Below, piece after piece: positions 5,253 to 55,474 of a stretch of DNA of 63,902 nt. The DNA is from a virus. Where the stretch lies: positions 1 through 63,902 of IMG/VR virus record IMGVR_UViG_3300050821_008367, one strand, 5' to 3'. Under the pieces are notes generated by a model. It was not told the origin of the DNA. It ran no database searches and saw nothing but the letters and a program-made list of their open reading frames with translations. Each line of letters opens with the position of its first letter. The first letter of the stretch is position 1. The translations under genes and the position numbers were made by a program.

Positions 5253-5473
5253 TGGCATTCCCTGCAACGCGCGCAGCCCTGAAGGCCTCCGGTTACCGCT
5301 TCGAAAATCACTCCATCTGCCGTGGCTGCAAAGAGCCTATCGAATGGTGGACTAGCCCGAAGGGAAGGAAGATGCCCTTTCAGCTTATGGCGGTTGATGA
5401 TAGCCCGGCGCTCGCTCACTTCGTCTACTGCCCGAACGCCGAAGACTTCCGCAGCGGGAGCACGGGCCGATGA
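5252..5473 (+). CDS. Small zinc-ribbon-like protein
   Basis: 73 residues starting MAFPATRAAL. CRGC near residue 24 and a later single Cys (FVYCPNAEDF) suggest metal binding; the WWTSPKGRKMPF segment is typical of small phage zinc-binding proteins of unknown role. The start at 5252 is chosen for the TGATG overlap; an in-frame ATG at 5222 would overlap the upstream gene. Confidence 0.65.
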   Translation: MAFPATRAALKASGYRFENHSICRGCKEPIEWWTSPKGRKMPFQLMAVDDSPALAHFVYCPNAEDFRSGSTGR

Positions 5474-5880
5474 GGCCCCGTAAGGTAGTTCTCATTATCG
5501 ATCCGCAAGAGGATCGTCGCGGCATAACCCGGTTCACGCTCTGGACTAACTTCTTCAACGCTGTTGGTGTCGCTTCCATCCATGAAGCGCGGTTGTTTAT
5601 AGGTGAAGGTCTGAGCGCTGATGTGATACTCGGCTACTGGCCGATTGACGAAGCATGGTTCGCTCAGCTGGGTCACGAGTTCGGCGTCCCTACGCTCTAC
5701 ATGGTTGACCAGGAGTCGCACGGTCACCGCTTGTCGAACGCAACTCTCCACGCCGTGCACACAGCGACGTTCGAGCTGGTCGAGCGCATCAAGATCCTTA
5801 CCGCCCGCAAGCGCGGCCCGAAGCCGAAGCCGGTCATCAGCGCGCAACCGCAGATCGAGGTGGCCAGTGCCGGAGCTTGA
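5470..5880 (+). CDS. Receiver-like (CheY-fold) protein with basic tail
   Basis: 136 residues. KVVLIIDPQEDRR at the N-terminus followed by alternating hydrophobic strands resembles the start of a response-regulator receiver fold, although I do not see a clear phospho-acceptor Asp-Lys set, so phosphorylation is doubtful. The C-terminus has an RKRGPKPKP basic run like an AT-hook that could contact DNA. It precedes an XRE regulator, so a regulatory role is an inference. Family assignment is tentative. Confidence 0.55.
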   Translation: MRPRKVVLIIDPQEDRRGITRFTLWTNFFNAVGVASIHEARLFIGEGLSADVILGYWPIDEAWFAQLGHEFGVPTLYMVDQESHGHRLSNATLHAVHTATFELVERIKILTARKRGPKPKPVISAQPQIEVASAGA

Positions 5881-6070
5881 ATCGATTCGCGACATCGCCA
5901 GGCGTCTCCTTGCCGACATCAACCGCAAGCGCATCGAGCGCGGGCAAACTAAGTTGGTCAGAGAAGTCCCACCAGCAGTCCAACCTATCTACGCAAAGCA
6001 GGAATGGCCCTTCGCTCTCGATGAATTCGATAAAGAGTTCCTTCGCAAACAAAGGATCCGATATCTATGA
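5867..6070 (+). CDS. Hypothetical protein (67 aa)
   Basis: 67 residues from a GTG start (PELESIRDIARRLL...), overlapping the previous gene by 14 nt and ending in an ATGA overlap with the XRE gene. Helical and charged, no family recognised. The choice of this frame rests on the overlaps at both ends. Confidence 0.55.
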   Translation: MPELESIRDIARRLLADINRKRIERGQTKLVREVPPAVQPIYAKQEWPFALDEFDKEFLRKQRIRYL

Positions 6071-6360
6071 AGCTCAAGCGTACTGAGAAAGAAATTGCCT
6101 TTGCCCGCACCCAAGGTCGGAAGTTGTACGACATTCGAAAAGCCAGGAAGTTATCGCGCCGCCAACTCGCGAAGGCGTGCGGCCTGAACCCGGCCATGAT
6201 CTACCGCATTGAGATGGGGGACACGACGGCGACTGCATTTGTACTCGATGCCGTTGCGGACGCGCTTGGTGCCACTGCCGATGATCTATTCCCGCGCCCC
6301 TGCCGCATGGTTCCGATTTCGATGGCGGCCACGTTTGGAGAAAGCAGAGCCTACGCATGA
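6067..6360 (+). CDS. XRE-family HTH transcriptional regulator
   Basis: 97 residues. RQLAKACGLNPAMIYRIEMG is a standard XRE/Cro-C1 helix-turn-helix in the middle of the protein, followed by the LDAVADALGATADDLF helix typical of the family. There is no dimerisation or protease domain, so it is a short Cro-like or antirepressor-type regulator rather than a full CI. It sits inside an early operon, where it may tune early transcription. Its operator is unknown. Confidence 0.85.
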   Translation: MKLKRTEKEIAFARTQGRKLYDIRKARKLSRRQLAKACGLNPAMIYRIEMGDTTATAFVLDAVADALGATADDLFPRPCRMVPISMAATFGESRAYA

Positions 6361-53063: not shown

Positions 53064-54722
53064 ATGAATTTTGACGATAACGAAGAGGTTTCGGACTTCT
53101 TCGGCAAGGCGCCTCTTGGCGGCACTCAGTCGCCGATAAGTCCAGGATTCGGGATGTCTGGTGTTCCAGGTGACTTCCGTGGCGGCCGGCGCGCACCGCA
53201 AAGCTTGCGTGGCTCACGCGCGGATGCTCTTGTGCCGCGTGTGCCAGCGGAACTCTTGGCACCCGACAGCGAGCCCGCTCCCAACCCCAACGACCGCCAG
53301 GGTATGCCGGCGCCGTACATCGATGACATAGACATCGATCGCAACTGGTTTTCTCCCTTCCAGCCGGTCTATCCGTTTGGGCCGCCCTATGTGAACTACC
53401 CGCGCGAATGGGATTACCCGGTCGGCGTCAACCTCGAGTACAACCCGGCGCGGTTCCAGCTTTACTCCATGCTGCGCGCCCTGGCCGAAGGCAGCGGCAT
53501 CATCTCTACGGTCCGCGAAGCCCGCATCGACGAGCTGGTCGGCCTGCCGTGGAAGTTCACCGTGAAGGACACGAAGACCGGTAAAGACTCCGATGACGAC
53601 CCGCGCATCCAGGAGCTGAACGACTTCTTCAAGAAGCCAGACCGCAAGAAGCCCTATCCGATGTGGATGCGGATGATCTTCCGCGACCGCTATACGATCG
53701 ATGCCGCCAGCGCGTACATCTGGCGCAACAAGGCGCAGAACAAACCCTACGCAATAGAGGCATTGGATGGGGCCTCGATTAAGCCGCTGATCGATGACTC
53801 CGGCCGTATCCCCGACTGGCCGAACCCGGCGTACCAACAGATCATCAAAGGCATGCCGATGAACAACTACACCGAGCGGGAGATTATCTACATGCCCGCC
53901 CGGCCGCGGACCGAATTCCCCATCATGGGGTATTCGGAGATCGAGCAGATCCTGATGGAGGCCACCCAACAGGTCCGCAAGACGCTCTACATGTTGAATT
54001 TCTGGAAGGAAGGCACAATTCCCGATGTGATGTTGGGCGTGCCTGAAAGTTGGACTCCCGAACAAATTGCGACCTGGCAGGCATCCTTTGATGCGCTGCT
54101 GTCCGGGAACCTGAAGCTCAAGTCGAAGATCCGGTTCATCCCGGGCGGCATGAAGCCCTTCGAGATGAAGGGATCGGCCGGCGACTTGCTGAAGTCTGAT
54201 TACGACGAGTGGATGGCGCGCATCGTGTTCTTCTGCTTCCGCATGGACCCGAAGCCCATGGTGAAAGAACCGGAGCCGCGGTCGAACGCAGAGCAGATGA
54301 AAGAGCAGATGCGAGCCCAAGGGCTCAACACCGAAATGGTCTGGTGGTCTGCCTTCATGGAAGAGTTGATCCGCGTCGGGTGGGGCTGGACCGACATCAA
54401 GCACGTATTCAACGAAGATGAGGACATTGCGGCGACCGACCAGGCGACGGTGGACGCTTCTAACTTGAAGGTTGGCGCCCGCACCGTGAACGAGTTGCGC
54501 GAGCGCGACGGTCTGGACCCTGTCGACGGCGGCGATGAGCCGATGGTCTATACCGGATCCGGCGCCATGCCGCTGAAGGTTCTGGCGGCCCAAACGGCGC
54601 TTCCGGTGCCCGCCGCGCCCGGTGGTAAGCCTGGTGCAAAAAAATCTGCGGGGGACAAGGGGGCCGGCAAGGCAGCCGACAGCCCTTTAGCAAAGCGGGT
54701 AAGTCGCTGGAACAAATATTAG
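53064..54722 (+). CDS. Portal protein
   Basis: 552 residues. FQLYSMLRALAEGSGIISTV, DAASAYIWRNKAQNKPYAIE, LDGASIKPLIDDSGRIP and IIYMPARPRTEFPIMGYSEI are typical of phage portal clip/stem domains. A Gly/Pro-rich 90-residue N-terminus and a Gly/Lys/Ala-rich C-terminus flank it. The C-terminal region contains A AAA AAA in slippery register (54638-54644), from which the -1 frame runs into the MuF gene. Confidence 0.93.
   Translation: MNFDDNEEVSDFFGKAPLGGTQSPISPGFGMSGVPGDFRGGRRAPQSLRGSRADALVPRVPAELLAPDSEPAPNPNDRQGMPAPYIDDIDIDRNWFSPFQPVYPFGPPYVNYPREWDYPVGVNLEYNPARFQLYSMLRALAEGSGIISTVREARIDELVGLPWKFTVKDTKTGKDSDDDPRIQELNDFFKKPDRKKPYPMWMRMIFRDRYTIDAASAYIWRNKAQNKPYAIEALDGASIKPLIDDSGRIPDWPNPAYQQIIKGMPMNNYTEREIIYMPARPRTEFPIMGYSEIEQILMEATQQVRKTLYMLNFWKEGTIPDVMLGVPESWTPEQIATWQASFDALLSGNLKLKSKIRFIPGGMKPFEMKGSAGDLLKSDYDEWMARIVFFCFRMDPKPMVKEPEPRSNAEQMKEQMRAQGLNTEMVWWSAFMEELIRVGWGWTDIKHVFNEDEDIAATDQATVDASNLKVGARTVNELRERDGLDPVDGGDEPMVYTGSGAMPLKVLAAQTALPVPAAPGGKPGAKKSAGDKGAGKAADSPLAKRVSRWNKY
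54638..54644 (+). other. Slippery heptamer A AAA AAA in portal frame
   Basis: Seven adenines read in the portal frame as GCA AAA AAA TCT, exactly the X XXY YYZ register for -1 frameshifting. The -1 frame has no stop from here to the MuF region at 54767. Confidence 0.5.
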
Positions 54723-54766
54723 CGGCCTACCTCAAGCGCAAGGGCAAGGAAATTGCCGCCTCAATT

Positions 54767-55474
54767 GTGGTCGAAAAACAGGAAACGCCGGATATTATCA
54801 AGGCCGCCGATTTGCCCGACTTTGAGGAGTTATTAAGCCGCCTCGAACTGCACATGGATTGGGGTGACTTGATAAGCGAAGTTACTCCGCATCTGGGCGC
54901 AGACGCCGAAGCCGCGGCGCATGATTTTCTTATCAATCTCGGCATCACGGAAGCCAGAGACAAGGCCCTCTGGACCCGGGTTTCGGAGCACGTCCGGCAG
55001 ATGGCCCAGCAGCGCGCGGCAGAGCTTGTGGGCAAGCGCGTCCTCGAGGATGGCCGCATTGTCGACAATCCCAACGCCGAGTGGGCCATCACGGAGACGA
55101 CGCGCGAAAACCTGCACGACCTGGCCGAAGATGCGATCGCTGAAGGCTGGACCGTTAACCAGCTGCAGCACAAGATCACCGAAAGTGAAGACTTCTCGCC
55201 GGCGCGGGCGCTGAATATAGCGCGGACCGAGAAGGCGTACGCGCAGAACCGGGGAGAGCACACTGCGGCCAAGGATGTTGGGTTCACCCACAAGGAATGG
55301 AACATGGCCGCCGAGGCCTGCGACGAATGCCGTGAAAATGAGGAAGCCGGCCGGATCGGCATTGACGATGTGTTTCCCTCTGGCGATGAAATCCCGCCGG
55401 CGCATCCCGCCTGCAGATGTGATGCGCTGTACTATGAATCAGCCGAAGACGAACCCGAAACCGAAGAGGAGTAA
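54767..55474 (+). CDS. MuF-like minor head protein
   Basis: 235 residues if the GTG at 54767 is used, but the frame is open upstream to the slippery site and encodes a plausible helix (KSLEQILAAYLKRKGKEIAA) with no good ribosome site before the GTG. Motifs: ALNIARTEKAYAQNRGEHTA, KEWNMAAEACDECRENEE, and the HPACRCDALY end, all typical of Mu gpF head-morphogenesis proteins. It may be made as a portal-MuF fusion. Three TTGATAA heptamers occur within 54795-54936. Confidence 0.88.
   Translation: MVEKQETPDIIKAADLPDFEELLSRLELHMDWGDLISEVTPHLGADAEAAAHDFLINLGITEARDKALWTRVSEHVRQMAQQRAAELVGKRVLEDGRIVDNPNAEWAITETTRENLHDLAEDAIAEGWTVNQLQHKITESEDFSPARALNIARTEKAYAQNRGEHTAAKDVGFTHKEWNMAAEACDECRENEEAGRIGIDDVFPSGDEIPPAHPACRCDALYYESAEDEPETEEE

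Follow-up and report, generated by a model that had tools for sequence, protein, structure and literature searches.

How is the MuF minor head protein of this virus made, when its reading frame overlaps the end of the portal gene and opens without a start codon? The window analysed here is the whole of a 63,902-nucleotide stretch of viral DNA (IMG/VR record IMGVR_UViG_3300050821_008367), in which the portal/MuF junction has the following parts.

53064 to 54722, plus strand: portal open reading frame (552 aa), ending in the 0-frame stop TAG at 54720-54722
About 53544 to 54509, plus strand: Phage_portal domain, PF04860 (Pfam E 2e-15)
54629 to 55474, plus strand: MuF reading frame, stop to stop, -1 relative to the portal
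54767 to 54769, plus strand: GTG, the earliest canonical start in the MuF frame
55109 to 55426, plus strand: Phage_Mu_F domain, PF04233 (Pfam E 6.7e-12)

Both domain matches exceed their gathering scores, with 57.2 bits against 39.1 for the portal and 46.6 against 29.6 for MuF. The portal also matches phrog_2662 (E 1.1e-54), a profile that spans both proteins, with the portal on positions 31-441 and MuF on positions 541-714. Before 54767 the MuF frame holds no ATG, GTG or TTG. No Shine-Dalgarno sequence was found upstream at a normal distance from the GTG, in agreement with an earlier note on this DNA, which had described the GTG as lacking a ribosome site, and the GTG has no conserved counterpart among relatives. 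MuF in the window is a downstream reading frame that overlaps in the -1 frame without its own start, the arrangement expected of -1 frameshifting.

We consider it probable, with good confidence from comparison of the sequences, that the portal/MuF junction is a programmed slippage site at which slipping on CCCTTTA yields both portal and a portal-MuF fusion. The majority of ribosomes would terminate at TAG 54720-54722 and release the portal of 552 aa. A minority would move back by one base at C CCT TTA (54683-54689) and continue in the -1 frame (PFSKAGKSLEQILAAYLKRKG...), producing a portal-MuF fusion of about 800 aa. A portal ring with a minority of fused subunits would tether a limited number of MuF domains, because portals form rings and few subunits would be fused. 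We infer slippage itself, its rate and its stoichiometric role, with portal and portal-MuF made in a set ratio.

The overlap contains two in-register slippery heptamers.

54638 to 54644, plus strand: A7, in-register A AAA AAA, seen only in this phage lineage
54683 to 54689, plus strand: CCCTTTA, in-register C CCT TTA, conserved, the most likely -1 frameshift site

The earlier note had proposed that -1 slippage on the A7 run fuses portal and MuF, and had missed CCCTTTA, which lies 45 nt 3' of A7. Its description of the run is accurate: portal codons GCA AAA AAA TCT at 54636-54647 put A7 in the X XXY YYZ register. Behind it the -1 frame stays open, first for the 41 codons that separate 54644 from the GTG (54767) and then as far as the stop at 55474. 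Misassembly does not account for the run length, since two IMG/VR contigs from other metagenomes, L001 and L002, agree with the window over 6026 and 4578 nt without a mismatch. A chance origin of an in-register A7 within the 31-codon overlap is unlikely, though the linker is rich in lysine; in-register A6 heptamers are rare in the portal genes of relatives (5 in 42,221 codon positions). In other branches of the family, too, in-register A-runs recur where portal meets MuF; of 13 one-ORF junctions with A7 or A8, 12 have theirs in register. Frameshifting chiefly at A7 is nevertheless unlikely. Within the 60 nt upstream of the conserved heptamer, compared in 27 distinct sequences, a run of at least six A is found only in the lineage of the window (1/27) and is absent from 26 of 26 other distinct near relatives. 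A7 is also missing in L025, L027, L035, L144, L149 and L156, all six of which keep CCCTTT, and portals about 60% identical to that of the window (L025-L030, L035) have no A7 but C CCT TTA, TTT or TTC at the matching place. The relatives without A7, an outcome that the earlier note had named as refuting its proposal, rule it out as a conserved slip site; the run is a lineage-specific addition that could serve as an extra slip site in this one phage. The portal-MuF fusion by -1 slippage that the earlier note foresaw is thus probable on the sequence, whereas A7 as the place of the slip is unsupported.

CCCTTTN, unlike A7, is an in-register slippery heptamer conserved in relatives. It occurs as C CCT TT followed by A, C or T, in register, in 13 clusters, which are 11 of the 37 -1 splits described below plus L025 and L035. 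CCCTTT sits exactly 21 nt before a conserved S/T-L-E in all nine ungapped members; its six bases are invariant among them. Pairwise comparison of the nine (36 pairs) shows differences at the seventh base in 23 pairs and at the two bases directly 5' of CCC in 26 and 29. Away from this site, 12 of these portals contain 66 Pro-Leu/Phe dipeptides, and C_CCT_TTN encodes none of them. A pattern scan returned 48 matches, 27 of them distinct, in which CCCTTT is present by construction, so that the scan is uninformative on CCCTTT conservation. A -1-frame stop lies immediately 5' of CCC in L025 and two codons before CCC in L010; a slip before the heptamer, such as one at the place of A7, therefore cannot reach MuF there. 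The available text of PMC4066793 describes C_CC.U_UU.A as shift-prone in E. coli without a stimulator, and the H_HH.U_UU.Y class, including C_CC.U_UU.Y, as among the most efficient shifters. CCCTTTA offers no substrate for slippage by RNA polymerase, so the straightforward reading for the window is a -1 slip by the ribosome. A single contig, L036, has CCCTTTC at its junction (5451-5554) in the other register, with MuF +1/-2 to the portal; this is possibly a +1 slip on CCC-U or a sequencing error.

If there were no frameshift, MuF would have to be made as a separate protein, through termination-reinitiation or from a weak or non-canonical start such as GTG 54767 or a CTG near 54707. The 54707 codon is indeed a leucine CTG or TTG throughout the ungapped clade. 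Overlap of stop and start, as expected for termination-reinitiation, is absent in the window, where the first canonical start of MuF lies 44 nt past the portal stop. In most of 29 sequences compared, no ATG, GTG or TTG follows the heptamer until the edge of the MuF core or a point within it. The exceptions are the window and L228 (GTG at codon 28), L156 (GTG at codon 29), L210 and L224 (TTG at codon 32), L144 and L146 (TTG at codon 8) and L236, which has no canonical start. Between 54722 and about 54761 the same 29 sequences show substitutions of 0.120/0.099/0.369 at -1-frame codon positions 1/2/3. Single-base codon differences over this stretch, counted in pairs that are not independent of each other, number 1299 synonymous to 330 non-synonymous when read in the -1 frame and 58 to 1367 when read in the 0 frame. 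These counts show coding constraint on the -1 frame starting well before the GTG, which argues against a separate MuF beginning there. We regard a separate MuF in the window as very unlikely.

Two features between the heptamer and the GTG bear on what the slip would produce.

54720 to 54722, plus strand: portal stop, preserved in the clade via TTA/CTA leucine codons of the -1 frame
About 54707 to 54760, plus strand: predicted helix SLEQILAAYLKRKGKEIA, upstream of the GTG in the -1 frame, conserved among near relatives

The 0-frame stop does not vary among the nine ungapped members and lies 12 codons after the start of the slip site in 27 of 27 distinct scan sequences. TTA and CTA make up 2-7% of leucine codons in these genes, yet are required by this stop. 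Given the coding constraint on the -1 frame and the retention of the 0-frame stop despite rare leucine codons, selection would seem to maintain the protein that ends at the stop as well as its extended form. AlphaFold models the -1 product (mean pLDDT 88.1) as a helix predicted with confidence (residues 9-26), which a weak linker connects to the MuF domain; a fold search of the PDB with the MuF model gave no match with E ≤ 0.001. The MuF frame upstream of the GTG therefore does, as the earlier note had held, encode a predicted helix and evolve as coding sequence. The GTG at 54767 maps to the weak linker, past the helix, so the helix would be joined to the portal by slippage only.

Not all relatives extend the portal as far as MuF. 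The -1 frame of L025 closes 37 codons past the heptamer and that of L035 about 51, in both after the helix and before MuF, which has its own ATG; in L236 (on the same contig as L137) a -1-frame stop follows after 49 codons. A slip in these three would merely append the helix to the portal. The two junctions with an ATG for MuF fit a separate MuF and count against slippage at A7 and at CCCTTTA alike; they suggest that the helix may matter as a portal extension by itself, or they may be recent breaks. L025 also carries a GIY-YIG endonuclease ORF with a NUMOD3 motif (5744-6307) between the -1 portal extension and MuF, directly after the conserved helix. L025 and L027 were scanned against Rfam for an intron surrounding this ORF, with no match at gathering scores.

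The frameshift reading was compared with junctions from 210 sources, of which 17 have no MuF match and 11 no portal; the other 182 reduce to 114 non-redundant junction clusters. Six of the surveyed loci come from named phage records. Portal and MuF form one ORF at 72 of the 114 junctions; 37 are split with a -1 overlap, 2 with a +1 overlap (L036, L120) and 3 by a gap (L025, L035, L022). The overlapping splits are thus -1 in 37 of 39 cases. An in-register slippery site is present in 35 of the 37 -1 splits, as CCCTTT in 11 and as an A9 or A10 run in 24. The portal-body rate would predict an in-register A6 or CCCTTT in 0.33 of 37, an expectation computed on an earlier set of junctions (70 fused, counting L036 as fused). 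In 31 of the 35 slippery -1 splits the MuF frame has no canonical start up to the matched region. A separate MuF would leave unexplained both the 35 slippery sites and the common direction of the overlaps. It fits the two -1 splits without a slippery site, L019 (3924-3928) and L189 (2465-2468), in which MuF starts at the portal stop (TAGTG in L019, ATG at the stop in L189). This stop/start overlap is a third way of coupling portal and MuF.

The slipped product and the in-frame fusions correspond in sequence: KPVP[L/F]RTAAFDRAKK of the slipped L010 product aligns where the fused L018 has KPVPFDRPVTVNARKA. In the tip order of a portal tree (104 sequences, L036 wrongly labelled fused) the CCCTTT junctions cluster together except L010, and the fused or split status switches about 15 times. 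Scans of genome contigs found no relative, so all split junctions come from uncultured viruses; the one-ORF junctions include cultured phages.

Many junctions carry long A-runs instead of CCCTTT, and these runs are the argument for a different machine, RNA polymerase, as the source of the second product. A9 or A10 lies at the junction in 22 of 72 one-ORF genes, prevailing among their long runs, and the A-runs of -1 splits have solely these lengths (11 and 13 of 24). Portal bodies (143,652 nt) hold 13 A6, one A7 and no longer run. Lys-Lys is encoded A_AAA_AAN in 85 of 188 cases at junctions versus 2 of 76 in portal bodies (Fisher p 1.4e-13, with runs counted more than once), and 41 of 72 one-ORF junction intervals hold a common slippery heptamer, versus 22 of 306 body intervals. 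Taking one-ORF and -1-split junctions together, an A-run or CCCTTT is present in 77 of 109. In 21 one-ORF A9/A10 genes the first +1-frame stop follows at a median of 2 codons, compared with 19 in a background that includes 60 positions from L036 (Mann-Whitney p 2.3e-9), and within three codons in 17 of the 21; early -1-frame stops in these genes showed no such effect (p 0.11). Near-identical contigs agree in run length in each of the 14 clusters with several members, one member being unread. We infer from these patterns that slippage in the one-ORF A9/A10 genes would release the portal alone. RNA polymerase slippage is the likelier route there, because ribosomes on A-runs shift -1, and the A9/A10 relatives perhaps make their second product in this way. 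A precedent is dnaX, which according to the available text of PMC5009743 relies on a ribosomal slip in E. coli and on an RNA polymerase slip on a run of nine in Thermus thermophilus. Like the portal/MuF junction, dnaX gives two products from one gene, and its T. thermophilus type resembles the one-ORF A9/A10 relatives; it differs in being an unrelated gene, and in that the phage family has both slip-to-extend and slip-to-truncate junctions.

For the window itself polymerase slippage is highly improbable. Instead of a homopolymer of about nine or more, as transcriptional slippage would need, the window has only A7 and CCCTTTA; polymerase slippage is inapplicable to CCCTTT, and A7 is shorter than the runs reported to slip efficiently. 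In the -1 splits, moreover, ribosomes could just as well slip -1 on A AAA AAG. We give hardly any credence to an artefact of homopolymer miscalls or pseudogenes: these are metagenomic assemblies and homopolymers are error-prone, but sequences are identical in independent metagenomes, 37 of 39 overlapping splits share their direction, CCCTTT is no homopolymer, and the cultured Thermoanaerobacterium phage THSA-485A has A9 at the same place. That A9 is the sole run of at least nine A in 6.2 kb, with +1 and -1 stops 2 and 7 codons past it. The C-terminal part of the 789-aa THSA-485A protein matches phrog_2662 and, weakly, head morphogenesis families, and does not match PF04233 at 1e-3. In an A10 subgroup (L011, L094, L108, L121, L124), with one member shifted by 3 nt, the codon-phase signal (0.34/0.44/0.56) is too weak to build on.

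Beyond ribosomal slippage at CCCTTTA in the window, we lean slightly towards the wider view that slippage is a general portal/MuF control element of this phage group, in which the element, the slipping machine and the default product have changed repeatedly and the mix of portal and portal-MuF has been kept. Two frames would meet at the junction, one leading into MuF and the other to a nearby stop. The link between these frames would be a slippery element (C_CCT_TTN, A_AAA_AAN or A9/A10), and the slipping machine would be the ribosome or RNA polymerase. The retention of slip sites of varied kinds at the portal/MuF junction in many relatives suggests a general way to fix the number of minor head proteins on the ring.

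A hairpin is a candidate stimulator of the slip.

54695 to 54737, plus strand: predicted hairpin, 5 nt downstream of CCCTTTA, candidate stimulator

The hairpin has a folding z of -3.5 in the window, the best of four stretches tried; its conservation in the clade is doubtful, with a covariation score equalled by 40 of 500 shuffles and a folding z above -1 over the 60-nt stretch in 11 of 13 members. Upstream, a G-rich stretch at 54657-54663 lies about 19 nt before CCC, and AAGGGGG or AAGGAGG recurs in relatives of the clade. This distance is greater than that of known Shine-Dalgarno stimulators, and the stretch may merely reflect the encoded Lys-Gly/Glu residues.

Programmed recoding of structural genes is established in phages. 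The accessible portions of PMC5009743 and PMC6316719 describe -1 frameshifting in the lambda-type tail chaperones gpG/gpGT and in capsid or tail-tube genes of T3, A2 and A118, and +1 frameshifting in such genes of PSA and SPP1. As in those genes, slipping close to the end of a structural gene would here fix the ratio between a short protein and its extended form. Unlike them, the gene is the portal, the extension is the whole MuF minor head protein, and the motif is CCCTTTN. The same heptamer, CCCUUUA, was proposed for -1 frameshifting at the Giardiavirus CP/RdRp junction, and a later paper disputes the site (PMC8230311, in the text available); that case differs in concerning a eukaryotic RNA virus with a proposed pseudoknot. 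In SPP1 the portal gp6 carries few copies of the MuF protein gp7 into the procapsid, as stated in the available part of PMC6316719. There gp6 and gp7 are separate proteins that bind each other, whereas we propose a covalent fusion made by slippage.

Portal-MuF gene fusions are already in print, as seen in the available portion of PMC7302621. In-frame fusions of the same two domains are found in Microbacterium phage clusters EA and EB, Arthrobacter phage Sonali, Brevundimonas phages Strzyga and Polewnik, and Thermoanaerobacterium THSA-485A. In these phages the default reading gives the fusion only, and in the window it gives the portal alone. No report of slippage between portal and MuF was found in the literature searched, and it is not described in the available parts of PMC5009743, PMC7302621, PMC7911831, PMC6316719, PMC3711429, PMC8230311, PMC4066793, PMC2853527, PMC6095929, PMC10299305, PMC10627814, PMC13313380, PMC12846349 and PMC10885494.

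The copy number of MuF on the portal, and its control, are unsettled in most phages. If our reading is true, a slip site that tethers MuF covalently to part of the portal subunits would settle the copy number for this group and would imply mixed portal rings. Programmed recoding, known for few phage structural genes, would also extend to the portal. The MuF genes that here lack start signals would be accounted for, and many gene calls would be corrected. With ribosomal-type and polymerase-type slip sites replacing each other at a single junction, the family offers a natural experiment on recoding.

Two of the one-ORF fusions carry additional sequence. L004 (2306-5578) has a long extra insert in the last Cys-rich motif of MuF, ending in VVVKNC, which resembles an intein; the insert gave no Pfam intein match at 1e-3. 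In Arthrobacter phage Mufasa8 (L209, 2134-5136) a NUDIX domain lies between the portal and MuF parts, and the fusion is annotated in RefSeq as a MutT/NUDIX hydrolase.
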